A DNA stretch of 64,000 bases from Grifola frondosa (Eukaryota > Basidiomycota > Agaricomycetes > Polyporales > Grifolaceae). The DNA is taken from contig LUGG01000002.1 in the NCBI GenBank assembly GCA_001683735.1, positions 806,001 through 870,000 of the forward strand, read 5' to 3'. Position 1 is the first letter of the stretch, and each line of letters starts with the position of its first letter. The notes under the pieces were generated by a model. The model did not search any database, was not told where the DNA came from, and saw only the letters and a list, made by a program, of their open reading frames with translations. Position numbers and translations under genes: made by a program. Below, in pieces: positions 32,218-62,100 of this stretch.

Positions 32218-32802
32218 TCAACCCTGCTCTTCTGTCTCCTTGAAGTCTGCCAACGCCTCCCGCAGGGCCCTCATCGAGACCTTCTCCATCTGGTCTCTGA
32301 AATCCGCCCACGTCTCCACATCCGGATCGACGAAACCGCGCAGGGGTCGGGGCAACTTGTCGCGGATCTCCGAAGCGATGGCGTCGTGCACGTCCAAGCG
32401 CTGCGCGAGAAAATATATGTCGCGCGCCCAGTATGCGTGCGTCGAGATCGGCCGGTGATGAAGTTCGATATACTTGCCCAGCTCGTCGATCGTTATGATC
32501 TTCTGTTCGCGCATGATGGCGATGGCATCTGCCATAGAGAGAGTGTACGAAGGCTTGGGCCAGCGGATTTTGAAGGCGTCGACGAGCTGCGCCCAGGTAT
32601 CAAGCTCGGTTTCCCGGAGGTCCTCGTACCACTGCTCAGCGATACCGCCGGGCGCGAGGTGGCAGTAAAACAGCTCGAGCTTGTGTTCTTCGGACTGTAC
32701 ACCATTGAGGATGAATGTTCGTGTCACGTCTTTCAGGAATTGGTGGGGGTTTTCATGGATGCGATTACCCCAGAAGAATCTGGAGTCAGATTCGGAGTCC
32801 AT
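32218..32802 (-). CDS. Ty3-type retrotransposon gag-like protein
   Basis: 194 residues with the retrotransposon gag domain pattern: NPHQFLKDVTRTFI, HKLELFYCHLAPGGIAEQWY and LDTWAQLVDAFKIRWPKP. A helical end follows and stops at TGA 32218-32220. Gag proteins form the particle of LTR retrotransposons. No protease, reverse transcriptase, integrase or LTR is visible nearby, so this is a solo gag-like gene, perhaps taken over by the host or left behind. The codon frame continues past the TGA into a Gln-rich stretch and, by splicing, into the next protein. Confidence 0.65.
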   Translation of the reverse strand: MDSESDSRFFWGNRIHENPHQFLKDVTRTFILNGVQSEEHKLELFYCHLAPGGIAEQWYEDLRETELDTWAQLVDAFKIRWPKPSYTLSMADAIAIMREQKIITIDELGKYIELHHRPISTHAYWARDIYFLAQRLDVHDAIASEIRDKLPRPLRGFVDPDVETWADFRDQMEKVSMRALREALADFKETEEQG

Positions 32803-33115
32803 AATGGACGATAGAGAGGCAAAAATTGAGCAGAATTATCAAGACTGCACGAGGGAAAGTCGCATCAAAGTAAATTGTGTAGCTTAGGTAAGAGCTTGCT
32901 GCACGTACTTCATAAGCGAGATGTGTGTCGATGATCTGCGAATGTACTCTGTTCAAGCAGTTTTATAGACTAGTATCAACACCGTTGATGCTGGAGGTGC
33001 AAGAAAGTCTAGTGCTCCGAAGAATACATGATACAGGGACATACAAACTTCAACTACGTCGCTCCTTCCGCTTTCTCTTTCCCCCAGGCAGGCAGGCCAC
33101 AGTCAATCCGAGTAT

Positions 33116-37740: not shown

Positions 37741-38429
37741 ATGTCTCAGCCAGTTATTACTCTGTACGATGTTCCTTCCACCATTCCTCAGCCTTGGGCT
37801 CCAAATATTTGGCGTATACGGTTCGTCGCTTAATTCACGCCGTAATGCGCCAATCACTTACTCTTTTCCAGCTTCATTCTGAATTATAAACGTCTCCATT
37901 ATCACACAGTCTGGGTCGAGTTCTCCGATGTCGAACAGACGCTACGGTCGATAGGTGCCCCGCCCACCTCGCAAAGACCCGATGGACGTCCAGTCTATAC
38001 ACTCCCCGTCATAGTCGACCCTCTGCGTTCCCGTAGTTCTCCCGTCATAATCTCCAATGCCAACATTATCGCCGAGTATCTGGAGACTGCATATCCCGCA
38101 CGGCCCATATATCCTGAAGGTTCCCGCGCATTGCAGACACTCTTCGTCCACTACATTCAGGAAATTTTTGTCAAACCGCTGCTTCCAATACTCGTCCCTC
38201 TTACCCACCAGAGGCTTCCAGAACGGAGTCAGGCACATTTTCGCCAAGGTGGTGCAGCCAATCTTCCCCCGCCACAGTTGGCAGGTGCGCAGAAAGAGCA
38301 AGCCTGGCGGGCAGTGAGGGAGCAGTTCGACTTCCTTGCACTCATACTTGACAAAAACTCGGTCCCTGACGGTAATGGGGTGGTGGCCATGGGTCACGAG
38401 GTCAGCTACGCGGACTTCGCGCTCTGCTC

Positions 38430-38480
38430 CATCAGCAAAACCCGGATATGTCTAATTTAATCTTAAATTGTCTGAACCCA
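38430..38480 (+). repeat. Left terminal inverted repeat of Plavaka element 1
   Basis: Starts CATCAGCAAAACCCGG; pairs with 53080-53128 with about 20 of 24 outer matches, then TGTCT, ATCTTA and TTGTCT in common. Confidence 0.75.
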
Positions 38481-38822
38481 TCTTAAACATCTTAAATTAA
38501 GACGAGTAAGAGACAAAGAACTGCCAGACCTTTGAGACGGTCCACACGAAAAACTATTAGACAATTTCAGAATATTTAGAGACCTCGAAGAGCACTTAAA
38601 GTGATTAGAGAATTTTCGGTTTAAATGCTCTTGGCTGCCTTGTTGATCTTACCAACTTAATTAACCATCATTTTCGTCTGAGTTCTCTTAATTGCTCTGT
38701 GTTCTGTCACACAGACCCAGAAGACGTCATAGAATGCTAAGAAAAGGCAATCTTCGAAGTTCCATTTGAGCTCTCCTGCGCCTCTCCAGGCACGTTTGCT
38801 CGTCCACCAAGCATCCGTGATC

Positions 38823-40660
38823 TCATCCCCACAGCCCCGTTAGACAAGGCGCATTCAAGATCTGCATTTGCGGAGTCTGGTTGCCGATAGTGAGAGTCGC
38901 TGAGGTGCCGCTACTCCTCAGCAACAGTCTTTGCCGCCTGGTCCTGAGGGCAGCCGCCACGACGGTTGCCTCCTTGGCAACCCACCCACGCTCGAAATCC
39001 TCCTGGCAGCGATTGAGTAGATACTTGTGGAACAACTGACCACCGGCGATAGGCTTGCCCTCCGAATTCTTGATCCCATCATCCTGGACATTCGCGCTAA
39101 TCTGCTCCATCATCTTGTGACAGAGACGTGCGTACATCTCCGACCAAGTCGCCTCGTCGGTTGCCTTCTCGAACACGAGCCGGATGACCTGGATCAGCGT
39201 CTGACCATCCTTCTCCTTCTCGGACCTGTTTGCCCAGGTAATGATTTGGTCCGAAATCGAGTCGAAGCGCTCCATCGTCAGTTTGTTGAGCAGACCCCGG
39301 ACCTTACGATCTACAACCCCTGGAGAATCCGCATCGGGAGCCTGAGGCTTTCTGCCAAGACTACCTGCTTGCCACCGGTCTGCAGAAGCTTCCAGAGGCG
39401 CAACGGGTTCCAAGGACAGTCCACCCGGTAGTGATGATCCCGAGGCAAAGGAACTTTGTTCTCTTTGTCGCGCCGCCCGCCTCACTGGCTCCGTGTCCGG
39501 CCACTGCCCATAGGGTGGCAGCCCGGACTGCCTTGGCTAGAAGAACGCGCCATAGGTGAAGGCTGACCGAACGGCATACCAGCAGGGCCACCAGACATCG
39601 AAGTGGAATGACTAGACATCTGGAAGCGTTCTTCGCTCGACACCTTGCTACTCGGCGTGGAGAACTGGCCCATCATGTTGAAGGGATTCGGGGGCTTGGG
39701 GAAGCCTGAAATAGCAAGGCCTATGGAGGCCTGGCGGGCGGCGGTGGAGGCGGGAGGTGACATGGATGCGGAGGATGTGTGGCGACCTGAACCACCATGG
39801 CTCATAGCGAAATTCTGGTCAGCAGGTTTGAGGCCGATTCATCTAGTGGCGGAAGAGAATCGGGTTTCTCCTTGCAGATGGCCATGAATTGTAGGAGGAA
39901 TTCGCGGTCGTACCTGAACGAGACCATGATTTGAGCAGACAGATCACAAGGAAGATTTCTGGAGACTTACCTGAATTTACCCTGCTTTGCATTCACGTTG
40001 AGTTCGACCTTTGGACTTTTGATGCCTTCAGGGTACGCGATAGAGTCAAGGTCTTCAATGACCCGAGCAGTGGCTAAAGCAGAGGGGAGTGGCGTGGGAA
40101 TGGGAACCTTTGTCCCCGATAGATCCAAAGGACCGGGGCGACGCTTGGGTGTCTCCGAATGCACCGCTGTGTCGATGCATAGCGGACCCTTGTGAGAGAC
40201 CTTGTCCTTGGCCTCTTCCTTTGCAGCGTCGTCTGCCCGCCTCCTCGGCCTCAGGAGCTTCCTCGACTTCGCCTTCTTTCTGCAGCCTCGGCCTTCAACT
40301 CCTTAGCTTTCTGGGCTGCCTCCTTCGCCAGATGCTCCTCCTCTGCCTTGTGCGCCCGCTCCTCCTTCAGCTGCAACCGCTCCTTCCACTCTTTCTCCTT
40401 CTGGATTGTTCTTTGTCTTCTTCCTACTTACGCAGTTCTCCCTCTCCTCCTCCTCTCTCTGTAACTCCCTTCTCCTCTGCCTCCTTGCGCGTCCGCTCCT
40501 CCTTCTTCGTTCTTCCTCACACTTCTTTTCCTCCTCTTCAGCTGCGCGGCGAGCAGTCTCCTCTGCCACCGTCTTCGACTGCTTCTTCTCATTCTCCTCC
40601 GCAAGCCTCTTCGCCTTGGCCTCCCACTCTGTCGGAATATTGATGGTCAGTCAATGTATG
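38823..40660 (-). pseudogene. Captured 3' fragment of eIF4G (MIF4G domain, truncated)
   Basis: On the minus strand the coiled segment AKRLAEENEKKQSK comes first. Then come PLDLSGTKVPIPTPLPSALA, YPEGIKSPKVELNVNAKQGK, a Ser/Gly-rich linker with PNPFNMMGQFSTP, and the MIF4G start (DRKVRGLLNKLTMERFDSIS, LIQVIRLVFEKATDEATWSE, KYLLNRCQEDFERGWVAKEA). All are the translation initiation factor eIF4G in the correct order. The MIF4G domain stops after about 110 residues; the following sequence is unrelated and soon ends. Introns are retained but several frames are broken. It cannot give a working scaffold for eIF4E/eIF4A. It lies inside the Plavaka element. Confidence 0.8.
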
Positions 40661-40699
40661 AAATGAAACAAGCAAATATATGCATACTCCGGTGAACGA

Positions 40700-41960
40700 C
40701 ACTAGGACCGGACTCGTCCTACTCCTACTTTGATTACCACAAGTCCTGGAAGGTGCTGAGGGAGGCTATGATAGATCCGCCAATCCGGATGGAATACTTT
40801 CTTTCGAGAGGAGCAACGATCTTGACCTGCAGTGCGAGAACGAATGTCAGCGCTAATCCATAATTGCACAAGATGAAACATACCTCCATGCTCGACGGTG
40901 CAAGCGCAAGAAACTCCTTCTGCATATGGTCGGCGATACCAGGGAACATTGTGGTACCGCCGGACAGGACGATGTTGCCGTAAAGGTCGCGACAAATATT
41001 CAGATCGCACTTGTAGATGGAGCTGTAACTGGACAAAGAAAAACATTTAGATCTGTTACTACTACTCGACAAAGGGGATGGACACGTACGTAGTCTCATG
41101 GACACCAGCAGCTTCCAGGCCAAGGAATGTGGGAAGGAAAAGAGCCACAGGAACACAAAATCTGATGAAAGTAAATTAAGCACACAATAATACACTTCTA
41201 ATAGATATTACACACCGTTCGTGGCCGATAGTAATGACCTGACCATCGGGCAACTCATAGCTCTTCTCAAGCGCAGACGCGTGCACAGCAGCCTGTAACT
41301 CCTGCTCGAAGTCCAGAGCAATGTAGCACAGCTTCTTGATGTCACGAACGATTTCATGCTCAGCGATAGTGTGGAAGGGCTAGCCTCGCTCCAACAAGTT
41401 CTTGATGAGGAACTCCGTCAAGTCACAACCAGCGAGATCGATATGCAAAATAGCGTGGGGAAGCGAAAACCCTTCGTAGACGGGCACAGTGTGGGTGACA
41501 CCATTACCGGAGTCCAGCACGATACCTGTCGTATGACCAAAGGCATACAACGACAGGACGGTTTGAATGGCGACGTAGAAGGCAGGCGCATTGAAGGATT
41601 TGAACATGATTTGAGCCATCTTTTCACGATTCGCCTTCGGGTTCAGAGGGGTCTCAGTAAGGTACTCCTCTGGCATGACACAGAGCTTGTTATAGAACGT
41701 GTGATGCCAAATCTTCTCCATGTCACCCCAGTTGGTGACTATACCGTGCTCAATAGGATATTTCAAGGTGATAATACCACGCTTGGACCACTGGGAAGAT
41801 GAATTGGTGTGATGCTAAGGTGCAATTGCACTGAAGCTTACCCAACATAAGAGTCCTTCTGACCTATACCGACCGTCACACCCTGGTGGTGAGGACGACC
41901 GACAATAGAGCTATCATACACAAGAATTAGTACTTGCTAAGATGATGACGTGGAAAATAC
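40700..41960 (-). pseudogene. Captured actin copy with introns, stop codon and residue changes
   Basis: In order on the minus strand: [134 protein letters not shown] and [18 protein letters not shown]. This is conventional actin. Defects are a TAG replacing the Tyr of the ERGYPF motif (about 41380), one codon lost in DIKEKLCY, many unusual substitutions, a badly diverged N-terminus (AGDPANVDAEH for the ADP-binding loop) and a missing final exon. Introns are still there, so it was copied as DNA and not from mRNA. Confidence 0.85.
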
Positions 41961-42540
41961 GTACGGAGTGCTCTGCATCGACATTCGCGGGGTCCCCTGC
42001 GAGCAGAATGATCCGATACCTACGCCCCATGAGCTCAGCGCAGCCTTGACGGGTTCTACCAGAGGTGGAGGCTGTTGATTCATTACGATGCTCAGCGGGC
42101 ATATGCCCTTAGGTCGCTGTGGTGGGGTGGGCTCGGGCTGCATGCTCCGCATGAGCTCCACCGAGCCCTTCCGCGATGTCTCGGCACTGGTCGACGTGCT
42201 CCCCTCACCGCTCAGGTCAGAAGTAGAACCCGAGTTGCACTGCAGCTACCACCCGCGCATGCTCTCGATGACCTTGAAGAAGTTTGTGGATCCTGCAGTG
42301 ATTGTACGCGAGATCGCCTCGCGTGTGGGTGCCAGCTGCTGCTCTAGCTTCAGCCCTTGGATACCCTCGGATAGCCGCAGGCCGATGTCGGCGACGACGG
42401 AGGGTTTCTCACTGCAAGGATGTCTATAGGAACAACGTAACTCCCATGAGCCAGAGGCGGTCGACATGCAAGGACATTCTCTTACCGCGCTTCGATGAGG
42501 TCGAATAACAGAAGGTCGGTTACCCAATCCTAGACTTCGT
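41960..42540 (-). pseudogene. Captured C-terminal fragment of a probable AVL9/DENN-type protein
   Basis: The minus strand codes WVTDLLLFDLIEAR, then across a probable intron VVADIGLRLSEGIQGLKLEQ, LAPTREAISRTITAGSTNFF, KVIESMRGW, a Ser/Thr-rich part and a final ALSSWGVGIGSF. This is the pattern I associate with the C-terminus of fungal AVL9-like (DENN family) late secretory pathway proteins. The name is from memory of the family and is uncertain. It runs directly into the actin copy without its own stop, so it is a fragment. Confidence 0.5.
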
Positions 42541-42568
42541 AAGCATTAGTCTCCTTGAATTCCTATAT

Positions 42569-44110
42569 CTATAACGGATTGAAGTCTTGTATCGAGTTCG
42601 GATCGCCTGTCAGACGAGTCAGCCACTGCACTCTCCTCTGACTCTGGAGCTTGCTATACCTCTTCTTCTCCTCCTCCTCCTTGCGTGCCCGCTCCGCCTC
42701 CTCTTCTTTCTTCCTTCGCTCCTCCTCACGTTTCTTCCTTTCCTCCTCTTCAGCAGCACGGCAAGCGGTCTCCTCCGCCGCCTTCTTCAACCGCTCCTTC
42801 TCATTCTCCTCCGCAAGCCTCTTCGCCTTGGCCTCTGGAGTCTCCATCCGAACTACTGTCTTCTGCGCAGGCGAGCTGGGCACGATCACTGGAGGCGACA
42901 CAACGGGACCCGCCTTCTTGAATTGTTCGAGATCAACTTCCATCCCGAAACCATCCTTGATGGTGACTTTCCGTGGAACGAACATGCTCGGGCTCGAGTT
43001 GAGCTGCCCAAGCCCCCCCTGGCGCAGTCGTCGATAATGGTGTAGAGGGTGGCGATGACACACTGCTCAGGCTCGTTGTGTGCGTGTGCGGTGAAGGCGT
43101 CGTATGTGGTGGATGACCTGTACTGGGAATGGCGGGGGTAAGCGTAGGCGTGCCGGGTGGGTGAAGTTGGGGAGGTTGCGCACGGGGTGACATGGGCATG
43201 CCACCCATCGGAGGACCGGGCGGACCCTGTTGAGGGTGATGTTGCGGAGGAACTGGCTGTGGCATCCACTGCTGAGGATATTGAACATACTGTTGGTCCA
43301 TGGCCACGCCGGGATAAGGATACTATAGTAGTTACATCACTGTCAGTTATCGACTCAATATTCAACCAAATAATACTTACATAGTATCCGGGCCACCCTG
43401 GCACCGGAACAGGCTGAGGCAGCTGAGGTGGCCCCATCCGAGGACTCGGCAGGCCCACCGACATCGGCGTCGGTACGGGCCCCCACCTAGCCCTCCAGGA
43501 GCACCGGTCGATTGCCCATTCACTGTGCCGTGGGGTATCGGAGGAGGGTGTGATGGCGAAAGAGGGATGCCGCTGGAGCTAGCCCCCGCTCCATTTTGCT
43601 GTGGCCTTAACGCGCCGACATGAAAGGAGTGTATGAATGGACACCTAATTGAGAAGGCTGCGGTTGGTGATGCATGCCCTGCTGACCCTGAGTCAGCATT
43701 GCTGAGGGAGGGAGGGACGTCGGGCGAGTTGAGGGAGAGGTGACATCAGATGGTGTTGAGGAGCTCGTCACAGTCGACGATCCGCTGCTCAGCGACTGGA
43801 AGAATTTTTTCACATCTACTTTCAGGTGAGGCATATGGGCTGGAGCGGAAGATGACGCTGCAGATGCTAACGCCGATGCTGACGGCGCAGATAGGGAGCT
43901 AAGTCGATGGCGATGAAGTTGAGGTTGAGGTGGAAGGTACTCTACCATTAGGTATCGAAGAGGGTGACGCTTGCACCGAGCCAAACTGCTTGATACTCTC
44001 TGACTGGATTGGTGGAACAACTGCAGGAGAGCATGGTGTTGGAGCGGCTATGTCGTCTATTCGGCCAAAAGTCACGGATGAACCTAGATCGGTGGGAAAG
44101 CAAGATGAGA
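42569..44110 (-). pseudogene. Captured 5' fragment of eIF4G
   Basis: The minus strand codes VTFGRIDDIAAPTPCSP, VPPIQSESIKQFGSV, HMPHLKVDVKKFFQSLSSGS and a Pro/Gln-rich part with QPVPPQHHPQQGPPGPPMGG. Then come VPRKVTIKDGFGMEVDLEQF and the coiled segment AKRLAEENEKERLKKAAEE continuing to RARKEEEEKKR. This is the N-terminal half of basidiomycete eIF4G, including an intron after WPGYY. It ends in unrelated codons and a stop at 42569. Its last 150 bp repeat the start of the 3' fragment at 40480-40640, so the two fragments overlap but are separated by the actin and AVL9-like pieces. Confidence 0.75.
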
Positions 44111-44229
44111 TGGTGAGAATTTACGCGCTGCAGCGTCGAAACATACCTGATTTTATGTGTTGTGACGAACGACGGGCACCTGCAATGCCACCGCTCAGCC
44201 GTCTAGAGTACATTAAAGCTATTTTCACA

Positions 44230-46050
44230 GTGAGCCGTGAGTAAGAAGAAACATAGGAAGGAGGAGCTTACTCTTTACATCTTGAGCTGACATGTCGCGC
44301 ATACCTCGAGAGTGAATTTCTTGCCGTTGCTCATAGAAATGGAGTGGGGACTGATGATTATGATGCTCAGTATCGTCAGTGGCAGTTGAACGCGAGCTCG
44401 ACTCACTATCGCAACATAGCAGTTCCACTTGCACCCCGCATCAATTGAGAGCACCGCGGAGTCTCGTAGTCGTGAGATAAGTGGCGATTACTGTGGTGTT
44501 CGTGAGGGCCCACGCGAACCCGCGGTCATTGAAGCAGTAGTGGAGCGTCGAAGCCTGCGTCGAGGCGACCACAATCGGAAGATCTACCTGGTGCGCAGCC
44601 CTAAAGCACACTTGCACGATGTCCTGAAAACCGCCTCCGCCTCGTTTTCAATCAGCCATTCCCCTGTTGCGCTTGGCACTGCCATTTGCGAGGGCACGAC
44701 GTCGGTCTCGAGAAGCATTGTTCGGTAGTCGAGTAGAGAGCGGCCGTCTGCGCAGAGAGGGTGCAGGGCTAGCAAGCAGCTTTGGCTGTAGGAATGCTCG
44801 GATTTTGAGTCGAGCGTGGAGGTCGTTGTCGCCATCGTTTGTGGCGGATTCTGTGCAGAGGTGGTGGGATTAATTAGAACAGAGTTATAAGGCGCCCACG
44901 CGTCCTCTCACTTTCCCATCTCCGACATCTGAACTTGCAGAATCTACGTTGGCGATATATATCCTTGTGAGTCACTGGATTTTGATACTACACAAGTTCT
45001 CATGTTTCTGCAGCCCAGCAGCATGCGATCGAGACGTTCCATAAGCTCACAGAGCTCCTCCGCCGAACAGAATAGAGTCAGCTGTCAGTCGTATTTACTC
45101 GTTGGGTGCTAGCCATACTGAACTGCATACTGTAGCCCCAGATTGTACTCCTCGCAGGGCCATTCAGGAATGACATGACCGCGCGCTGAGCTTCCAGGAG
45201 GTAAGCTACCCACGCGCTGATGTCCTTGTCCTCACCCACTCCCCAACTTCCACTACCTCTCCGAGTGCACCGTGCTGTCATTCTGCCGCATGTCAGGACC
45301 GTAGATATGGACGTTGACCCTCGCACCTGACCCCAGCGACAAGGAGCACCTCACCTCACCCTCATCGACACGCCGTCCCTGGAATACGAGGACAACACCT
45401 CATCCTAGTGGACCGTATCCGAGATCCTCAGGCATGTCGACACCAGATTCGCTGAGAGAATCGAGGATGTGAGTCCCACTCTGTTACTGCACGCACATGA
45501 CAATGAACGACATGCTCCTTCCAGCCCAATAAAGCCCTTTCCGGTGATGAGCCTGCCATCCCCGCTGTTGTTGGACCAAGCAGCTGCATTGCGATATACG
45601 GCATCCGAGCCTTGTTGGAAATGTGCATGTAACGGGCAGTGGAGATCGTAGAGATCAGGGAGGCGACCGCGATCAGCTTTCACGCGCACCAGGCTGTGGT
45701 ACGCGTGCTCGGCCAGGGTGTGTGCGGGGCGATCGTGCGGGGGAAAGGTGTAGACATAGAGAGGCCATTCTTGCCATCGAGAAAATGTTACACGAGGGTG
45801 GGACTGGCACCGATGTGCTCGCCGTGGTAAAGCTGGAAGTGGAATATGTGGTCTGGCGACGGCGTCGACGGCGGGCAAGCTGGGCCACATGGAATAGTAG
45901 TGTCGTGGACTACCTCATCAATGAAGTCAGTTGTGACACCTAGCGGGACATGCGATGCGTCAATGTTCAGCACCCCGCGTGCTAGCTACAGTGCAGGTTG
46001 TGATTCGCAAGCAAAGAAATCTCTGGAAAGAATGCATGAGTGAGGGGCAC
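44230..46050. other. Further gene scraps inside the element, including a probable exosome-subunit start
   Basis: On the minus strand at 44584-44835, LHPLCADGRSLLDYRTMLLE with TDVVPS is the N-terminal pattern of RNase PH-type exosome subunits (Rrp42 group). On the plus strand at about 45800-45835, DVLAVVKLEVEYV resembles a later part of the same family, in the opposite direction. Minus-strand pieces at 45405-45890 (LAEHAYHSLVRVKADRGRLP) and 45078-45326 (LLEAQRAVMSFLNGP) look coding but I cannot assign them. None forms a complete gene. Confidence 0.4.
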
Positions 46051-46097
46051 CAAATCGATTTCAGGCTACTCACGGTTTGCCACAGGCTGCGCGACGT

Positions 46098-49000
46098 TCA
46101 GAAAACCATCTCGAATGCATGATGGTCCACATATCTGTTCACATAGAAGTACTTGTAGGCATCGAGGGCATTGTGTTCCGTGATATTGTTGGGGACAGGT
46201 TGTTTTCCATAGACACCAATAAGATGGGCAGCTCGGACAATGCTATCGAGATGAAGCACAGAGAGAACGGGAACGCCACGCTTTGACTCGGGGCGAACGA
46301 TGTACATGCCTGTATCTTCATCGGGCTCCTCGGCTATGCGTTCGAACCACTGGACCAGTGCGCAAGGATATACGATACCACCAAATTTGAAAGAGAAAAA
46401 GAGGCGTATACGCACTACAGCAAGAGCCTTGATCCCTTCGAAGTCCGGCTGATAATTAACAAAAGCACAGTCGAAGCGCGGTGCGATTCCGAACCACATC
46501 GGTGTAGCACGAATGTGTTCGCGGTGCATTCCTCCAACGCCAGAGGGATCACTAGGTGCATAATAGGTTGATGCCGCGGAGAAAAAAACTGAGATCTTCT
46601 CGTCGAATTCCGGGCAGTCCTGTAGCGGAACTTCGAGTCCTGGAAGGCCACTGTCCGGATTTAGTTGATCGTATAGAAATCGACGTATCAGTTCTTTCAG
46701 TCGAGGTTGCTTGATGTAATTAGCAAGAGCTACTGCTGTACGGGGAAGTTTTGTCTCTGTATGGCCAATGAATGAGCATTTGCTGTTGACAATGAATGAG
46801 AACTTACGGGGAGTCGCAGCCATCACAACATATGCAAGGACAGTGGGTCCGGGCATAGCGCCATCATCGTTTCGTGCTCGATTGTGCTCCCGGCGTGACT
46901 TCGCGGGGATTAGCATCTCTTCTTCCGATTCCGTGTCCTCGTCAGGATCTGATATGGGATTTAGTGTGACATGCAACTTGAATAAAATACCACTCACGTA
47001 GCTTGAGATATTCTTCGAATAAACAAGGTCGCATGAGCATCCCTCGGTCTGCAAAGTCAACACGAGATGCGGCGAGTTTGTCAACGCGCTGGTTCGTCAG
47101 CAACATTTGCCCCATCGCTTTATGTTTGTTAGAACGCCTATATGGATCCTTGACTGCCTCGATGTGCTTTGATTCCGTTATCGAGGAACAAAGACCATTA
47201 GGAGCGCCAAACGCCCATATAAGACGGCGATAGTGGCGAAGCGAGTGTTGACGAGGAAGATTGAAGTTTTCTCGTACACCAGTGGCCTGAAAGATTCCCC
47301 GATTGGCATAGAAGCGCTCCAAAGCATGCTCAAGCTGGCGCAGAGTGCTCGGAGTGTGAACATTGCGGCGGACAAGGTAACAAAACTCGATGAACGCCCG
47401 AATCGCCCGTACCATTTCTGAGGGCACGTAACCAACAATTGCAGCAAGATAGACCTGGTATCATGATTATAAGCTGTGGCTATGTCATTAAGGGATGGCC
47501 GCTCACCTTCATTAACGCTTTGGAATCATCCCCGGTCCATTGCTTGAAGCCTCGGCCTTCATGGAAGTTCCGCAAGCCAGAGAAAGGTGGTGCAACCGCA
47601 ATGCTGTACGTTCTCAATAATTGACTTCGTTGCAAATGAAATGGACTCACCGGTGATCGATGTCTGCGAGAATCACCTGGGCCTGCGAATTTCCATGTTC
47701 TTGAATGAGATACTGCTCGACCCAATCAACTAAGTGATCCTTGAAGGTTCCCTTGATCAATTGGTGGAGGATATCCGGCGCTATCAGCTCATGGATGTCA
47801 GCGCGGGGAAAGTCGTTCGTGAAGGGCTGTGAAACGATAGTAATCAGTGATCATGAACACCAAAATAAAGGTCATCAATGCCGCAAAGTCGTTGCTCCCA
47901 TCGACGATGCAGCGGAACGTCTTCAATTCTGGCCTCCACCAAGAATCAGATGCGCATTGGCGCGGCGCTGCACCCACCGCACATCGACTTCGACGAGCAC
48001 ATCAAAGCACCACGGCGCCGTGATTGTGATGTGTATGAAGAGCTGGTAGCGGCTTGTAGAGACCTACATACGGTAGGTGATGAGAGCAGGGGACCCGTTT
48101 CATCTCTCGAGGAGATGACATGGTCGGAGCGTGCGTGAAGAGAACAGATTGAAACTTACTACAATATCCCCGACAAGACCGTACTCATTCCAGAGCACCC
48201 CAAGCTCAAAGTCGGCAACTAACGCCTCCGTGTGTTCACGCGTCCGACGCCCGCCGCCAGCACCGTCAAGGTCGTGATTGGGGGCTGTACACCTGAATAC
48301 AGCATTAGACATATCTGGAAGAATCAAAATATGAGAGAGTATACCTTGGACACCATCCTTGCACGATGCAGGCAAGGAGGGCTTGCTCTGGATAGTCCGC
48401 GATATAAGGGCCTAAACCATAAATGACACGTCTAAAATGTCCGTCGGCGCAACGCGTGACCTCCGGAGTGGTCATTCCGGGTTTTAGTGGTTGAAGAATG
48501 CGAGAGAGGGAGGTATGAAACAGTTGTCGTCGGAACTTGCGAAAGTTTGCATCATTGGCGTAGTCGCGATGTGCTTTGTAAATCTCGTGTGAGCTACGTA
48601 GAGTAACGAGTCAAAGAAGACTTACTTTTTGGTAGAGCTAGGAAGCCGATTAAGGCAACCGCATTGCGATGTGCACGGCGTACGCTATTGTTCACATTCC
48701 CGATCGATGCGTACAAAGGATAATACTCATTTTGCCCGGTTGCGACAGACACAGTGGTCTTGTCGCTGCCCAGGATGATTGGAACGAACGCCGCTCCTGC
48801 GTTTGTAGGGTCTTCCGCAATGATATCCTAGTGAAATCTCAGTTATTGTATTCGTTTGCAAGCAAGAAAATGTAAAATAATATACCGCCTGTTTCCATGC
48901 CCAGTCTCCAGACATGAAATCCTTGAGTCTACGTTCCCCATCGACAAATTCGCGAAATGGTCCGTAATTGATCTCACCGTCGAAGTCGGGGTTTGCGAGC

Positions 49001-50016
49001 ATATTCTGAACAACCGTACGCGGATTTCGAAACCAAACATCATATCTGCCTGTCATCCATCGTGGCACATTATGATCAGGAACCTCACCAGAATAGCTCA
49101 ACTCAAACGACTCCCACTTGACATCCCCGAGGCGGGTCGAATCAATGGTGCGGTAAAGGTCCTTGGAATTTGCGAAAGGTCCATAATCGTTATACTTGAG
49201 AAGCGTAGCTGTCCAAAGGTCCATCAGTTCATTGATACATTTTCCCGGCATCTTGTCGCGCGTATAGAGTAGCCCAGCAACTTCAAACTCGACGCGGTTC
49301 CGATATGGTGACCAGTCGTCTGATAGCGGCGCGGGCGGGAAAGTGGGAGGAGTATCTGGCGGCAAGTAGTTTCCGTCTTCATCGCATGGCGTGCCTGAGG
49401 TGCAAGAAATGATTAAAGGGAAGTTAAGTGGTATCGATGTCCTGAAAAACACACCGTCGATATGCTCGTGATATTCACGGCTTAATCCTTCAGGTACCGT
49501 ATCATCCAGAGGATGATCTTCCGCTACATGCGCCGGAGCATCATCATCACCCTGCTCTGAATGCCCTAGACTCGACTCCTTCGAAAACTCGGAATGCGGG
49601 CTCAAATAATCAAAATCCCCCCCTCCGAGATCAAAATCCAAGTCAGCCATAGGCGAACCGACGCTGTGTTCATCTTCCTCGTGATTCGCAACCTCGCCTT
49701 CATCGACATCATCCATTAGTACGTCTTCGGGTCCGACTTCTTGATCAGAATGCTCGGTGGAGGAATTGGTTTCATGAACTGCAGCGCGCTGCGCTGACAT
49801 CGTGTCACTGTGGTCATTTTCCGATCCGCCGTGGTCAGAAGACGGGTCGGACTGGGGTCCAGCTGCATTAGGGAGGCATGGGTGGTGTGTGCGGAAATGT
49901 AATGTACGTCCGGCCTTGCTTTTGAAGTAGCGGTGGCATTTACGGCAGCGATACTCCGCTGGATTACGGATGGGTCGTTTTAGAAGATGCGAGAAAGGAT
50001 CGGGTGAGCTAGACAT
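46098..50016 (-). CDS. Plavaka transposase (element 1)
   Basis: The gene starts with a C2H2-type zinc finger (YRCRKCHRYFKSKAGRTLHF followed by two His) and an acidic Ser/Asp-rich region. The Plavaka core follows: WTATLLKYNDYGPFANS, GRYDVWFRNPRTVVQNMLAN, SGDWAWKQA, then after introns FKQWTGDDSKAL, MVRAIRAFIEFCYLVRRN and SLRHYRRLIWAFGAPNGLC. The usual tail is VNRYVDHHAFEMVF. It catalyses excision and insertion of CACTA-like DNA elements of the Plavaka group, which is widespread in basidiomycetes. Many short introns break it and I did not join all exons. Long open stretches and preserved ends suggest it may still be functional. Confidence 0.85.
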
Positions 50017-50219
50017 AGTTCTATGTAGGACCTTTAGGAGAGATGGATTGAGCTTCAGAATAAGAAAAAAAACAAAGTAAATTCACGGCGTACGCTGACG
50101 CGCTCACTCTGTGAGCGTCGAGACACACCGGTCATCGGGAGGTTCTAGACGCCAGGTTGCATGGGTACTTGATGAGCATCCCGTAAAGTTCAACTTTCAA
50201 CCACTACCTTCACTCCTCC
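50017..50219. promoter_or_regulatory. Divergent promoter of element 1 (transposase / partner)
   Basis: 203 bp between the two start codons, with an A-rich stretch at 50061-50080. Element 2 has the same arrangement with 184 bp between its start codons. Confidence 0.55.
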
Positions 50220-52323
50220 ATGCCTCAGACTCGACCTACTAACAAGGATCAACGCCCCGGTCAGGTTGACATGAAGCGCAAGCGTCGCACCCGTGCTGAA
50301 ATCGAGGCGGACTTGGCGGCGAAGGCGGCGAAGGACAAGAAGACGACGGCAAGCCAAAAGGAAAAGGAAGCCCACCTTGCAGACATAGAGGATCAAATAT
50401 CGACGAGCGACGCCCAAGCATCCGCGACGCGTGTTACACACGCTAAGAAAGGTCTTGTCCGCAGCGGTGCCATAGCTGATATATCCAGGCCTCCGAAGAA
50501 GGACAGGCGTCCTCGTAGGGTGGAGCGGGATGAATCCACTGAGCCAAGTGCCGGCAGCAAAGAAGATGACGCGTTGTATTCAGATGTGCCGACCGACATC
50601 GACTACACTTCGGAGTCAGACGCTGTACCACTGGCTAAGAAGGCGAAGAAGGACAGCGGGGTCAGGAAGGCCATCACCGCAGCTCGTAAGACTCTTCCCG
50701 ATCCCGCCGTCAACCAAGTGCAGGGCGCTGCGGCCGACAAATCGAGGATGTCGCCTGATATACCTGTCAAAAAGGGGTGAGTTAGCTGCAAGTCGAAGAG
50801 AATAGTTAGCGCTCAGAAATTATCATGTCTTGACACTTGTCTTAGGGCTCAGCAAAAGCAGGCAACATCTGTGGAGGGGATTTCAGGCACTGCCAAGAAC
50901 TGGACGGCATCAGTGGTTGATTGGGATAACGCGCTGCCACCTACAAATCGTGACACTGCTTCTATTATTCCGTATACTAAGCCACCCGCTGGCGCTCGCG
51001 CAACGAAGGAGAACATACCGGCGACACCAGTCAAGTTTCAAGAAAGGGGAATCATCAGCGATGACGAAGGTGTGGAACGAGATGCCGCAATGTCAAGTCC
51101 TGAGAAGAATGGCAAGCGTTTGACGAGTAATGTGAGTGCCAATGGACTTACCGTATTGATCTCTAAATGGGTTGTCACATCCAGGGTATCGTCACTGTCA
51201 CGTCCAAGCCGCAAAGCGATTCCAGCACTAAGGTCAATTCCGACGTTCAAGTCAAAGCCGAGGACTCTGATGAAAACAAGCTCAACGACGCACCGAAGGA
51301 TAGCAAAGATTCTGAAGGAACATACAAGATGCCTGCAGAGCTGAATCACCGTTTCAAGAGGAAATTCATGCCGACGGTCATCAAGCTTGTTGGAAGACTG
51401 AACAATCCGTGGTCGTTCGTCGAGTTGGGTGCAAAGCAGCTCGACATGTGTATCGAATTCCTCCAGATGCTCTGGATCGAGATCTATGGACCTACCGTCC
51501 CTGTTCCTCGGCCGATGAAACCTTTCTGCAAATTGGTAAGTCCGACATGTTCTTGAGCAACTGATTACTTTCTTACTCCGTGGTAGGTGACCCAAGAACT
51601 GGCCCAATGGCGTTCCGCTATGGCCAGCACAGCGCTTCGTCTCTTACACAACTTTTTTCTCAGCGATCCTTCGACTGCCTTTGATAACGAAGAGCGCGCT
51701 GCGGAGGCACAAGACATGCTCCAAGATCTATGGTTCCTCTTCGAGAAGGTTCATTCCAAGGTATGTCGCGTTTTACTGTCTCCACAAAACAACTAGTTGA
51801 TATGTCTATTTATTAAATAGCCTTATTCGGGCCTCTTCCGATCAGCGTTCGTCTTGCGAACCTTTACTCATTTCCTTTCCTCGACCCACGGTGCAATCAA
51901 GTTCTCTGATCACAATATACCTCGGTCAATGTGTTACCCATTGGCGCAGTTGCCTTGGCAGCAGCCGCAGTACGTTCACGCATTCATTGTTGATATTGAT
52001 TTCGTTGACTTCATTTTTAGGTTGAGCGCGCTGTGTGGTTGTGGGCCGAGGAGCGCGTCACCATAAGCAGTAGTGGTCAAGTCGATTATCCAAAGAAACC
52101 ATTCAATCCGAAAGTCCTCAAAGAAAGCAAGTACCACCACCACTTTAGCGACCTTCGGTGGGGCAGCGCGACCCGTTCATATGTTGTCTCGGTGAAGAAC
52201 CTTTCGGCTTCGAAGATCTCGAAGATAATCGATCTAGCGCGTCCGCCTTCCACCATTATGTCAGATGACGACGATGACAAGGGCCGCGCATCGCTCGTGG
52301 ACAATGGCTCGGATTCCGAGTAG
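50220..52323 (+). CDS. Plavaka-associated partner protein (DUF6532-like helical domain)
   Basis: Six exons: 50220-50776, 50846-51131, 51185-51535, 51587-51760, 51821-51970 and 52021-52323. The N-terminal part is basic and acidic in turns (MKRKRRTRAEIEADLAAKAA), likely nuclear and disordered. The folded part has FKRKFMPTVIKLVGRLNNPW, QELAQWRSAMASTALRLLHN, SGLFRSAFVLRTFTHFLSST and VERAVWLWAEERVT. It ends in an acidic tail, SDDDDDKGRASL. Its helix pattern and place next to a transposase match DUF6532-type proteins. Its role is unknown; a DNA-binding or regulatory helper of the element is possible. The join of exons 5 and 6 is one base short (CCGCAG|TACGT). Confidence 0.65.
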
Positions 52324-52579
52324 CGGTAGTGGTGCGTAATCTTGTTTTCCATCACATTGGTCTGACTGTCTTAGCAGGGATATCTCGTGGTGCTAGACGA
52401 GCTGTTGAATACCCGGCAGGCCCGGCGTCATCGTCGTCTCTCCTATTTCTCGCAAGGACATCTTTTCGTCTATTCCCTCTCTCTCGTATATATCCACCCC
52501 CACTCACAAGAAAACTCTGACATCTTGGCCCGGATTTCACTGATTATTCTCTCTTGCACTCCGGCTTCTGTATGTATGT

Positions 52580-52805
52580 ACACTCATTTGATTTCTGAGT
52601 GTTCTGGACAGTCTGGTTTCATTATGCCCGCATTTCAATCTTCTTTTTTGTTTTAGCAGTCTTAAGTCGGTCTCGCGCTTCTCGGTGATGTATCTACACT
52701 CATTTGCTTTTGAGTGTTCTGGACAGTATTTTCATTATGCCCGCGTTGTACTTGTCTCGACCTTCTCTTCGTCTTAGCAGCCTCAAGTCGGTCTTCCGCT
52801 TCTGT
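52580..52805. repeat. Two imperfect tandem copies, about 116 bp each
   Basis: Copies start at 52580 and 52696. Each opens with ACACTCATTTG, TGAGTGTTCTGGACAGT and CATTATGCCCGC, and later has TTAGCAG, TCAAGTCGGTCT and CGCTTCT. ACACTCA and TGAGTGT form a small palindrome in each. Location near the right end of the element suggests subterminal transposase-binding repeats. Confidence 0.65.
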
Positions 52806-53079
52806 CCGATCTCAGGCATATTGTGTAATACCTATGCTCTTTTCAATCAAATTTTGTATAGCGCTCTCTCGCTTGAATGTCTGTGGGTCAATTACAGTCT
52901 GAATGAACTGAGATCTCTTTGGTATCTGAGCTATCTGAATAGAATCTGAATGATTATATTAACTTCATGGTCTGAAGCCTCTAAATTTAACACATAAGAA
53001 GATTCAAGACCATTTAGAGACTACAGAGGACGAGGGCTTATGAACGCTCTGAAGCGTCTTAAGGTTCAGATGCTCAGAC

Positions 53080-53128
53080 GAAATAGACAAGTTAAGATCA
53101 AATAAGACAACTTCGGATTTTGCTGATG
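53080..53128 (-). repeat. Right terminal inverted repeat of Plavaka element 1
   Basis: Ends TTTTGCTGATG at 53128; its complement begins CATCAGCAAAATCCGA, matching the left end at 38430. Confidence 0.75.
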
Positions 53129-53315
53129 TCACTCTGTATTGTGAGTGTTATCTTTTCTTTGTCGGTGCTTCACGCTTAAATGGTCCGGCTTCTTCATTAG
53201 GATATGGATAGAGAAGGTATCACCGCATGAATGCTGGGCAAGGATCAGGGAATGGAACGGCGGGAGATGGGCGCGACTCTGGGAGAGATGCAGGGAATAC
53301 ATGGATGTGTTTTAG

Positions 53316-54771
53316 CAAGGCAAGTCGTTGGGTTCGACTCTAGTTTCTACAGTATGACCGTCATCACCTGCTACCCATTCCTATCATATGTCTCGGCCTT
53401 TGTGGCTAATGCAGTACTCTGGCATAGTGCTAATATTTATTATTTGGTTCCCTTGGTACATGTATTTCTGCCATATATATCACTGGATTTGCGTACACAC
53501 TGGGCATCCAAAAGATCTTCGGCTATTCGACAATTGCTACTCAGATTCCCTTCCCAGCGACGAGTTCCGGGAGCAGTACCACCAATAGTACCGCCATTGT
53601 CGTGACCAGCACCAACGCTGGGTACGTAGTATATGCAACTCTACCGCGGAGATTGCCCTGTGGATTCAATCAGGCGTCAAGTCACGGTCAGGTCCGTAGG
53701 TCGGACTCAAATGGCACAATGAGAGAATGAATAGATGTTGGATTGTATTGCATTTATTGTCAGCGCAGTTCAATCTAGGCCTACGAAAAATCCGATGACA
53801 GCGTGTTAGTGATAATAACCTGTATCATCGGGAATCCCAACGGATACGTAAGTATACTACGCGAATCAGAAACACAGCCAGCTGGGTGGAGAAGTCTGAA
53901 CGCAGAATCGCTCCGTAGAAATTCAACGGCACATTCTTGTGATGATAAGTATACTTGGTGTGGAAGTAATTCCTCCATAAGGAATGGGCCACATACCTTT
54001 GAGTTCTTCCGTACGGGCCTGAAGGGATGATAGGGTATCCTGCATATGGCACCGTGTCCCTTCCATACTTTCCATATTGGTCATCAGAGTCTCCGATGTT
54101 GAAATTCTGGGAGCCACACCACAAATTTTGAAAAGTGTGTGAGAATTATGTATCCCGTAGAGATGATGAATTATCGATTTGATCGTTCGTAGAACTGTTG
54201 CTTATCATTCTGTGCATTCAAAAGAGGCGGGACAATCAATAAATTAATCGAAAAGCCAACAGGACCAAAGGCACAATTCCTGCAGAATGCGTCAAAAATA
54301 CAAGAGGGTCGATGACTCTTTCATCGTCACTCACCATGAACATTTCCGCGATGCGACTCGGAAACCTAGATAAAGAAATTCGTTTGACAAGCAAAGAATT
54401 CGTTCATGGTACCTTTGATATTTTGCACTTCCGGAAAATAATCTCTCCAGTAAACAGAGAGAAAGTCGGAGGACAGTATTGACTGATTTGAGACCACGAC
54501 GATCGTGAGTCCACACGTTCCAACTCAGCATCGAGGTGGCTGGCATGAGCACCATAGAACTCTCCGACTCCGACGTCTCGGAATCTTCGAACAGAGGCCG
54601 TCCAGTTCTACGATGAAATGCATGTTATTGGGAAACAATTCCGAGAAAAGACTCGAGAGTCAAGAAGTTAGAACTCCAGGCAAGGCACGTGATTGGCACG
54701 CGTCGCGCGCCAAGAGTTGATCGACAAGTTAGGACTACGCTCAATTGCCATACGGTCATCTCGCTATAACA
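53316..54771. other. Intergenic after the GST gene
   Basis: 1.45 kb with no recognised gene or repeat. A GGTTCGACTC string at about 53332 is not part of a tRNA that I can fold. Confidence 0.45.
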
Positions 54772-56283
54772 ATGTCTTTCACGTTAAATTCTATCCTCAG
54801 TTCTCAATCGTCTCTGGTTCAGGAAGCCGCAGAAGCTCTCCCCCACCAATTCTCTCAGTGCACTTATTCCCTCGGACCCATCCGTCAAGCAGTTTATCTT
54901 TGCTTTACATGTGCTTTGCCCCGCGGTATCTGCTCAGCGTGCTCAATCGCCTGTCATACGGACCACGAGCAGCTCGAACTTTTCCCTAAACGCAACTTCC
55001 GCTGTGACTGTCCTACCACCGCGCTTGCTCACCAGTGCACCCTGCACAAGAACTTGGAGGAGCCCAATAGTACAAATCAATATGGACAGAATTTCGCGGG
55101 AGTGTTCTGCAGGTGCGGGAGAGAGTACAATGCCGAAAAAGAGCGGGAGACGATGATCCAATGCCTTGCCTGTGAGGTGCGTTTCTTGGCCTTGTTCCAT
55201 ACAATGTCTGACAGTGTGTACTAGGACTGGTTTCACGAATCATGTCTGAACCTTCGTGAACGTCCATCGTCCCGACAACCGACTCCAGAAGTTCCCCAGG
55301 AGCCTCGAGTGGAGACAGACGATGCTGCCTCCGAAACTTCTTCGTCTGGGCTGCCTCCTCCGCTCATCCACGCGTCGGACTATGAATGCCTCGTCTGCAG
55401 CGCTTGTGTGCGTAGGATTGACGTGCTTCGGAGATGGGCTGGTACACCTGGAGTGTTGATGGTGGTGCGCAACAGCCCTGAGAACCGGTGGCGTGTAATC
55501 GGCAAGGAAGATGGTGCCGAAACTGACACCGTTGAAATTGACACGGTAGGGAATGAAGTTGAATCTTCCCCTGTTACTGGGGAGAAGCGTGAACGGTCAG
55601 CCTCAGCTGCAGATGCGCCGGAGGCCAAGCGGACGAGAGTATCTCCAGATGCATCGTGCTCATCACCTCCTTGCCTTGCTCCTCCCATCAATCAGGCTGC
55701 GCAGGACCTCCTAACATATCTCGACAAGATGGGCTTACCGGAAACAACCCCCATTGTTGAGCATGAGTACCTCGGTGCAGGGGATATCTTCCTCACATCC
55801 GGCTGGCGAGATCGTTGGTGTATTGTAAGAACGTGAGTCTTTGTAATTCTACTCGATGAAGTCCCTGACTTCTTCATCTCAGTGTTTGCCCACATTGCGA
55901 TCGCGGGCATATCTTCTTGAGGAGGAAGAAACCTACGAACCCCCTGAGGACCCTGATTCTGGTGGGTTGTGTGTATTGCCATCTCATTATCAAATGTGAC
56001 TCATGGACGTCCATAGGCTTGTCGCTTGAAGAACTGGGTATGCGCGCGCCCAACGTCTTCCCCTGATCGCGCCATAGACGGGATCAGAGCATTCAACGAG
56101 ATGCGGTACGTCCCTTTACTGCCTGTTATGTATTCTTTTTCCCTAGTGACTTACCATCCTCATACTTCATTTGTGCGCAGTGACGATCTCATGAACCACC
56201 TCCGACCCTTCGCGCAGGAAGGAAAAGAGGTTACCGAGGCGGACATTCGTGCCTTCTTTGATGCACGCATGGCTACAAAGTGA
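54772..56283 (+). CDS. UBR7-like E3 ubiquitin ligase (UBR box plus PHD finger)
   Basis: Exons are 54772-55176, 55225-55824, 55883-55961, 56017-56105 and 56181-56283. The UBR-type zinc box is at about residues 25-95 (CTYSLGPIRQAVYLCFTC, GICSACSIACHTDHEQLELF, RNFRCDCPT). An atypical PHD finger follows (VFCRCGREYN, IQCLACEDWFHESCLNL, then YECLVCSACV after an acidic insert). The C-terminal part has RAYLLEEEETYEPPEDPDSG and DGIRAFNEM. The human relative UBR7 binds histone and N-degron-like substrates. The frame is off at two C runs in exon 4 (56049-56051 and 56060-56063). Adding one position at each gives the family sequence (QRLP, then DRAIDGIRAFNEM), so sequence error is likely. Confidence 0.85.
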
Positions 56284-59193: not shown

Positions 59194-62100
59194 ATGGCTG
59201 CAATCCAATGCCTCAATTGTCATGCACTTTTTGCAGAAGATTCTCACCTTCGTCATCATCTCGCACAAAAGACAGCTTGTAAGGATGGACACTTCAAAAA
59301 GGTCAAGACACGGCCTCCGCCATCCCCATCGACTGAACGAGCTAGCATTCGTCGTCGTCGTCAGGAGCCAGCTACTTTATCTTCGAATTCCCCAGATGCT
59401 CACATATCTCCTGGTGGTCAGCAAGATGACAGTTGTTCGTCTTCCACACGGTCGGGCCCATCGTCATCCACGCATTCAACTGCACAAGACAAATTCATCA
59501 GAAAGACATATCCTGATGCTGGAAAACCATTGCGAGAGCATCCTACCATTTTTGAAATGCGTAAAGCAGTTCAGAAGCAGGAGGGTTTGCCGCCGTGGGC
59601 ACCATTTGTTAGCAAGGAGGAGTGGGAGTTCGCCGAGTGGATCATCGCCAGCGGCATCTCACAGGACGAGACTGACAAGTTACTTAAATCTGGCATGGTA
59701 GGTTCATTGCTTTTCGAAAATACATACTATACTGATAAGTCAGAGACAGTTTCAGCTATGTGTTGCGAGTAACGCAGCCAAATTCGCATCTTACCGTGAT
59801 AACAAGACCCTGTTAAAGACTATTGACCTACTACCCGGCCCCGCAACGTCATGGAAACTCATTGAAATCACTGTAAAAGGGGACATGCAGGATGCTAAGG
59901 GGAATACGATGACAGAGACACTCGATGTATGGGCGCGCAATCCTGTGGAAGTCGTCGCAGAGTTGTTGGGCAACCCAGAATTCAAGGACGAGTTGGAGTA
60001 CGCACCAGCAGAGGTATATATGGGAGCAGAGATGGAAGGAATGGATCCCGACAGGCTGTTCGAGGAGATGTCTGCTTCGGATTGGTGGAACAGAGTCCAA
60101 GTAAGCACAGCGTCTATCAGAACATGGTCATGTATATAGACGTTGACGTACCCGTAGACATCAGGAGACCTTCCAAAAGAGGCGACAATTGCACCTGTAA
60201 TTCTTGCTTCTGACAAGACACAATTATCGACGTTTAGCGGCGATAAGGTTGCATGGCCAGTCTATCTTACCATCGGGAATATCAAAAATTCCGTTAGACG
60301 ACGACCTTCAAGACGCGCTATGGTTCTCCTAGGTTATCTGCCTGTCTCAAAACTCTCTTGTTTCCGGCCACAGGATCGCTCCCTGCAAGGATATCGGCTA
60401 TTCCACTTCGCCATGCAGCAACTTCTCTCACCTTTGGTTGATGCCGGAAAGCATGGCGTGGAGATGGTATGCGCGGATGGTCTTGTCCGATTGGTCTTTC
60501 CCATACTGGCGGCCTACCTTGCCGACTATCCAGAGCAATGTCTTATTTGCTGCAATAAGGAAAATCGGTGTCCAACCTGTGTCGTCCCACGGGATGAGCG
60601 CGGTGAGCTGGTTGACAGCTGCTATCGCGATCCTGAGACGACTTTAGCAGCAGTCAATGATCCCTCATCCTCGCGTTTCGACAACGAAGGACTCCGACAC
60701 GTACCTAATCCATTTTGGATGAATCTCCCACATGCAAATATCTTCAATTGTATCACTCCGGATCTTCTCCACCAGCTGCATAAAGGTGTTTTCAAAGATC
60801 ACCTAGTCAAATGGACGACGAAGGGATTTGAAGCTGAGGTTGACTCACGATTTATGCGCGTACCTCCGTATATAAATCTACGTGCATTCAAAAAGGGAAT
60901 ATCGTCAATCTCTCAGTGGACGGGCAATGAATTTCGCGAGATGGAGAAGATCTTTGTCTGTATTCTCTGTGGTCTGCATGAAGACTCACGTGTTATCACC
61001 GCAACTCGCGCCATCCTAGACTTCATTTACCTCGCTCACTACCCTTCCCATTCGACGTCGACTCTCGAGGATATGCAGCGCGCACTAGAAACGTTCCACA
61101 GCCACAAGCAGGTATTCGTCGATCTCGGTGTCCGATCGCATTTCAACATCCAGAAGATCCACTGGATGAAACATTATGTCGTCTCAATTATCGACTTCGG
61201 GTCATGCGACGGCCTCAGCACAGAGATATCAGAACGGCTCCATATCGACTTCGCCAAGCAGGCCTATCGTGCAAGTAATCGAAAGGCATATATCAAGCAG
61301 ATGATACTGTGGCTGTTGCGTCGTGAGAAGGTGCGATGGATGCGGGGCTACATACGTTGGAACACGGCCCTCGAGACGCAAAATGATCTCGTAGGCAACC
61401 AGCCTACTGGCTATGATGTCCTTCTTAGTGATCGAGATGACGATTCTGAGGATGAGGACCTCTCAGATGATTGTCTTCAGCAGTCTGGACTTTGGACTCA
61501 CGAATCTGTGGAAGTACTGTCCTACCCTGCTCATCCGTCACATGAATCACAGGTCGTGACCTATGATCACACAGATATACACCTAGACAATCACACGGGT
61601 ACAACTAGCAGATTGGCCACCGACCTCGATGACGAAGCTGACCTCGAAGAGTCCCAGGTGAGCAAAGTTCGCCCTTGCACACAGGTCACCTAATAAGACT
61701 CCAACCTTAGTGTACTACCTATTTCAGCCCATATCGGATCGCACGTCGTCCAGGACTGGGTTTCTACACAGCTGCGGAGATTGTCGCACACTTTGGGGCT
61801 GTTTCGTTCGAACATGCTCTGAAGACCTTCCTTCAGCGCGAATGCCCCACCGCCCAGGAAAGATATATTGAGGGGACCATCACAAAACACCCTTATGCAG
61901 TGTTCAAGCAATTTAGCCGTGTACTCCCTTCTCTTCGTGGTGTCGACGGCGACACCTTCTATGATCGTATTCGGGCTTGTCCTTCTTCTCACGATCAAGC
62001 TGCTTATTTTAGTACTGTTCTCTATGTCGACCAACCCGAGCACGCTCACACGGTCGGTCTTGAAGGTGCGCTACAGACGTCAGCATTTTAGTGATACTGT

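Follow-up and report, generated by a model that had tools for sequence, protein, structure and literature searches.

The window analysed here is a 64,000-nucleotide stretch of the Grifola frondosa genome (GenBank assembly GCA_001683735.1, strain 9006-11 according to the available part of PMC10820438), and the part studied was positions 37741-53315 within it. This part was found to contain a fungal gene for a detoxification enzyme, glutathione S-transferase (GST), cut in two by a 14,699-bp transposon at 38430-53128, assigned below to the PlavakaB type, and the transposon in turn carries pieces of four host genes: eIF4G, actin, an Avl9-like and a septin-like gene. Genome comparisons covered this one assembly (39.06 Mb in 64 contigs), and C-numbers with coordinates (C14, C25, C37 and so on) denote its contigs.

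The split glutathione S-transferase gene

The 5' part of the gene consists of 212 complete codons and two bases, and the insertion site lies six bases upstream of the end of exon 2. The GST frame enters the element for 28 nt and reaches a stop codon at 38458-38460, and the truncated gene can code only for residues 1 to 213, of which number 213 takes its final base from the transposon, and for nine transposon residues. The best protein match, the deposited G. frondosa protein A0H81_01905, is the truncated GST and ends with exactly nine transposon-derived residues. With only 213 GST residues and nine foreign ones encodable, the truncated GST is probably non-functional. The public gene model A0H81_01905 should carry a mark as disrupted.

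A first-pass annotation, made from the sequence alone, had placed the break of the frame at 38430, where an inverted repeat starts, and the missing C-terminus beyond the repeat ending at 53128. Both placements were borne out, the former by a pair of 44-nt terminal repeats and the latter by the position of the last exon (Table 1) and its continuity with the preceding sequence in all 21 orthologs. Joining 38429 to 53135 and removing introns of 51 and 60 bp (37821-37871 and 53141-53200) gave 759 nt in one frame; this is the length and frame proposed in the first pass, which had removed the 60-bp intron alone, whereas the 51-nt intron must go too. Joins with three or six additional bases were likewise in frame, so that the frame was rejected as sole proof of the join, which is fixed instead by alignment with orthologs. 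The 21 orthologs, chosen among the 120 matches listed of 354 (119 besides A0H81_01905), all have C-[S/A]-V-L-I-W across the join with no gap there, and are 68-79% identical to the joined GST.

Each half of the gene was found once in the 39-Mb genome, and the other GST-related stretches are only 36-46% identical, as against 68-79% for the orthologs; the split gene is thus the only close ortholog found in the genome. A complete GST elsewhere, raised in the first pass as a possible source of the right-hand fragment, was looked for in the genome and none was found; with each half single and the related stretches so distant, such a source was not supported. Among plasmids, nothing matching the 5' part was found. 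Relation to the FuA class was indicated by a T. sanguinea match named FuA class (75%) and by a match to PF22041. Glutathione transferases of solved structure among the relatives are 4lmw, 4lmv and 4f03, presumably Phanerochaete FuA enzymes.

The PlavakaB element and its cargo

The 44-nt terminal inverted repeats are 84% complementary and have the outer form 5'-CATCA..TGATG-3', the transposase domain PF18759 was matched in three successive pieces (E-values 2.1e-30, 2.4e-28 and 7.5e-34), and a 2-bp repeat, TC, adjoins the element, with a further ACTC unexplained. As far as the available text of Kojima 2025 (PMC12730594) goes, PlavakaB families of Agaricomycetes have CATCA..TGATG ends and 2- or 3-bp target duplications, and Plavaka belongs to a group also holding CACTA/EnSpm and Transib, the source of RAG1. 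The element resembles these families in its termini, its Plavaka transposase and the 2-bp duplication seen in some copies. The same type of end was found genome-wide at 13 left and 22 right ends, those of the window included, and a reversed control pattern gave 0; the right-end pattern allows up to three mismatches and so takes in related families too. Open reading frames (ORFs) of the C37 copy lying inside the transposase gene matched the window without stops, while some antisense or outlying ORFs matched with stops. The window transposase, read as multi-exon, looks intact in the pieces compared, although it may hold small frameshifts.

Table 1 Features of the split GST gene and of the inserted element (positions in the window).
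Feature	Position	Strand	Basis or remark
GST 5' part, FuA-like	37741..38429	+	exon 1 37741-37820, intron 37821-37871, exon 2 37872-38429; PF22041 partial match
Whole PlavakaB transposon, 14,699 bp	38430..53128		termini CATCAGCAAAA..TTTTGCTGATG, shared by other copies
Left terminal inverted repeat, 44 nt	38430..38473	+	inverted-repeat comparison
Captured eIF4G fragment, 3' part with start of MIF4G domain	38915..40623	-	~90% identical to native C14:814850-816615
Captured actin fragment with intron sequence	40625..41966	-	88% identical to C25:139405-140766; PF00022
Captured Avl9-like fragment	41967..42661	-	86% identical to C17:553369-554099
Predicted stop-to-stop ORF fusing eIF4G in frame to the Avl9-like piece	42569..43066	-	ORF list, sequence comparison
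Captured eIF4G fragment, 5' part	42662..44190	-	~92% identical to native C14:816442-817966
Captured septin-like fragment	45289..45548	+	86% identical to C10:371058-371321
Plavaka transposase gene, multi-exon reading	46098..50082	-	PF18759 positions 1-99, 101-168 and 165-246 of 325, three successive pieces
Two stop-to-stop ORFs	50187-50780, 50781-51344	+	no Pfam match; stretch 50187..51344 partly conserved in related copies
Right terminal inverted repeat, 44 nt	53085..53128	-	inverted-repeat comparison
Six surplus bases TCACTC compared with orthologs	53129..53134	+	adjacent 2-bp TC repeat and ACTC
GST 3' part	53135..53315	+	remainder of exon 2 53135-53140, intron 53141-53200, final exon 53201-53315

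The boundaries of the cargo against the parent genes are sharp, to about one base. The captured actin retains intron sequence, and its source was therefore DNA. The actin and Avl9 pieces stand back to back within eIF4G, bordered on each side by a copy of one 174-base stretch of native eIF4G, the first ~174 native bases of the 5' part duplicating the end of the other eIF4G part. These three captured genes have the orientation of the transposase, and the septin-like piece lies on the opposite strand. The native eIF4G (C14:814850-817966) has MIF4G, eIF_4G1 and MA3 domains. For the Avl9-like parent a match to PF09794 was obtained in a neighbouring ORF, outside the captured piece, and for the septin-like parent PF00735 scored above the cut-off in one ORF and below it in the ORF overlapping the captured piece. 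The captured fragments were absent from the first-pass annotation.

Three further features lie outside the split gene and its insert. A UBR-box gene (54733-55224, plus strand, PF02207) follows the GST by ~1.4 kb. A second Plavaka transposase is located ~7 kb past the GST (60158-61693, plus strand; PF18759, E-value 4.6e-91), and no matching pair of inverted 12-mers or CATCAG/CTGATG ends was detected around it. On the other side, at 32218-32835 on the minus strand, a match to retrotransposon gag (PF03732) was weak and did not reach the curated cut-off.

Origin and age of the insertion

On the sequence evidence, the split of the GST is a transposon insertion into a formerly intact gene; no other reading agrees at once with the pairing of the termini, the TC repeat next to the element, the finding of each half only once and the alignment of the orthologs. 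In the fuller account preferred here (probability about 0.93), a PlavakaB-type element that had gathered its cargo beforehand inserted by cut-and-paste into the only close FuA-like GST ortholog found. The element would first have taken up the eIF4G, actin, Avl9-like and septin-like fragments from host DNA, most likely by copying host sequence during repair of breaks inside it, and would then have landed in exon 2 of the GST, duplicating 2 bp (TC), with ACTC added on the right before, during or after insertion.

Several points weigh against this account. Three of the seven complete family copies have no adjacent duplication (C14:447638-467237, C14:556182-561627 and C10:1579524-1587163), four right-flank bases, ACTC, are left over after a 2-bp duplication, and the ORFs 46098-47096 and 46942-47460 inside the transposase gene had no Pfam match. 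Neither the assembly nor the 120 proteins listed yielded an empty or second allele of the GST locus, other G. frondosa genomes not having been searched, and both the loss of GST function and the mechanism of capture are deduced from sequence. It is nevertheless very improbable that the transposon, or an error of assembly, joined two GST fragments of unrelated origin: apart from the missing empty allele nothing speaks for it, and the halves, each found once, make up a complete GST that is gapless at the join against all 21 orthologs.

The surplus bases can be accounted for in different ways, since a 2-bp duplication explains TC and leaves ACTC, while a 3-bp duplication explains CTC and leaves TCA. 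The first-pass annotation had noted that a strict 2-bp TC duplication leaves the join out of frame, which the join test confirmed, and had concluded that the duplication was of 3 bp or the flank altered. Of these, an altered flank is the likelier. An adjacent 2-bp repeat is present in four of the seven complete copies, namely those in the window (TC), at C7:104095-130615 (TC), in C37 (CA) and at C7:1771720-1775997 (AG), and the chance of at least four in seven is 0.0005 at 1/16 each; the family evidence thus appears to favour a 2-bp TC duplication over one of 3 bp. A duplication of CTC, with filler TCA added at the right end during insertion into a gene fully intact until then, is doubtful. 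Removal of TCACTC does give the ortholog-like sequence exactly, CTC recurs three bases past the right end, and 3-bp duplications are among those described for PlavakaB in the accessible portion of PMC12730594. Against it, an adjacent 3-bp repeat occurs in none of the seven complete copies, and TCA follows the right end in none of the six other copies tabulated; TCA as a common filler past the right end was rejected on that count.

An earlier insertion and excision may instead have left a 4-bp footprint (A and CTC) that had already frameshifted the GST when the present element entered at a 2-bp TC target, a possibility to be entertained only tentatively. If the element is removed together with a 2-bp duplication, CTC-A-CTC remains, a sequence shaped like an excision footprint, but two insertions at one spot are then required, and the joined GST shows no other decay. 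The predicted empty allele would read CTGCTCTGTATT after a 3-bp or flank-altered insertion and CTGCTCACTCTGTATT if the footprint came earlier.

As for the age of the insertion, the 21 orthologs agree throughout in 71 alignment columns, and the joined GST departs from the shared residue in none of them; when each ortholog was compared in this way with the remaining 20, it departed in 0 to 9 invariant columns. A Poisson bound, based on our own estimate of ~156 amino-acid-changing sites, gave a chance of no hit of 0.04 at 2% neutral divergence and of 0.002 at 4%, and the eIF4G cargo of the window has by our own arithmetic accumulated ~4% private (neutral) divergence after it split from that of C14. 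The insertion is therefore probably younger than that split, and the first-pass suggestion of a recent event holds in this relative sense.

The cargo itself would have evolved broadly neutrally, as a passenger. Between the window and C14 copies of eIF4G, both of which carry indels, changes at codon positions 1/2/3 were about even in three of four blocks (37/33/36, 31/24/27 and 18/16/18), as expected without selection. Two comparisons run counter to neutrality: the fourth block, a repetitive charged stretch, leans towards third positions (16/26/35), and the differences between the C37 copy and native eIF4G are mainly at third positions (4/7/25), with no indel in the MIF4G-side exon. Constraint on the native gene accounts for at least part of the latter bias, perhaps not all. 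These C37 values, and the recurrence of eIF4G pieces across several related elements, would suit an element keeping an eIF4G/MIF4G-type protein for its own use; given the three unbiased blocks, the indels in both copies and the insert that cuts eIF4G in the window element, selection of this kind is improbable.

Related copies, gene capture and known elements

The actin-Avl9 junction is common to the window and C14 copies within about two bases, and the C14 copy keeps more of the Avl9-like gene and holds an eIF4G stretch of at least 4.5 kb. In the C37 copy, actin and Avl9 are missing and eIF4G is present; its identity to the native gene is 97% along 3.3 kb and 93% along another 218 bases. The copy at C7:104095-130615 is ~99% like that of C37. 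In their backbones the C14 and C37 elements group together (6.6 and 10.3% apart in two segments) with the window element outside (14-15%). A four-way comparison of eIF4G sites paired the window copy with that of C14, and the C37 copy with the native gene, at 29 sites, the alternatives having 9 and 3; when the C16 copy replaced the C14 copy, the same test gave 3, 2 and 1 sites, few sites only. As the backbone and cargo groupings conflict, they are most simply read as showing that the native gene overwrote the C37 cargo or was captured a second time, the alternative being exchange of cargo between lineages.

Three other loci bear on the family. The ends of the C7:104095-130615 element are 26.5 kb apart, and ~14 kb between 115024 and 129246, without a scored match to the window element, may be a nested insertion. 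The C39 element (C39:7803-14206) is 99.9% identical to that of C37, the outer flank included, and C39 is therefore probably an alternative-haplotype contig or an assembly duplicate; the genome may hold some such contigs, and none was found for the GST locus. At C14:571783-601008 several eIF4G-like pieces are clustered; their identity to the native gene, determined for three loci, is 67-90%, which suggests repeated or old captures.

Taken as a history, these relations would make PlavakaB elements of mushrooms serial collectors of host genes, a proposal to which we give even odds. A long eIF4G stretch would have been taken first; one or two repair events, bordered by the 174-bp duplication, would have stacked actin and the Avl9-like gene within it, and the septin-like piece would have been added; overwriting from the native gene, or exchange, would then have made the element and cargo trees differ.

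Capture of TET/JBP genes by Plavaka elements is already in print (PMC12730594, available text). Unlike the PlavakaB elements described there, the window element holds four ordinary host-gene fragments, and no TET/JBP domain was present in the 10 scanned of its 14 ORFs of at least 150 aa. The literature searches made, which covered open-access papers, turned up no report of ordinary host-gene fragments, or of stacked host-gene capture, in Plavaka. The nearest published parallel found, judged from the accessible part of PMC1947982, is Tgm-Express1, a 5.7-kb CACTA element with five host-gene fragments in an intron of soybean F3H. Both are CACTA-group elements loaded with several host-gene fragments and interrupting an enzyme gene, whereas the window element is 14.7 kb long, interrupts an exon and includes a transposase gene. 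The plant Pack-CACTA/Pack-TYPE elements likewise enclose pieces of host genes between the ends of a DNA transposon, but these are described in the available portions of PMC13317346 and PMC8903248 as non-autonomous, and the window element encodes a transposase. The Helitrons of Pleurotus ostreatus, mushroom transposons with captured genes as well, differ in being rolling-circle elements (PMC4289320, in the part available).

Insertion of a transposon into a host gene is an ordinary event, and the cargo is the unusual part. The disrupted GST can serve as a strain marker and for testing whether this GST is dispensable in a white-rot mushroom. The cargo matters more, comprising fragments of four host genes in the form of DNA that contains introns. 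Their parent genes are present in the same genome, and related elements show the cargo at different stages of assembly; the window element and its relatives thus constitute a fungal system in which the steps of gene capture can be ordered.

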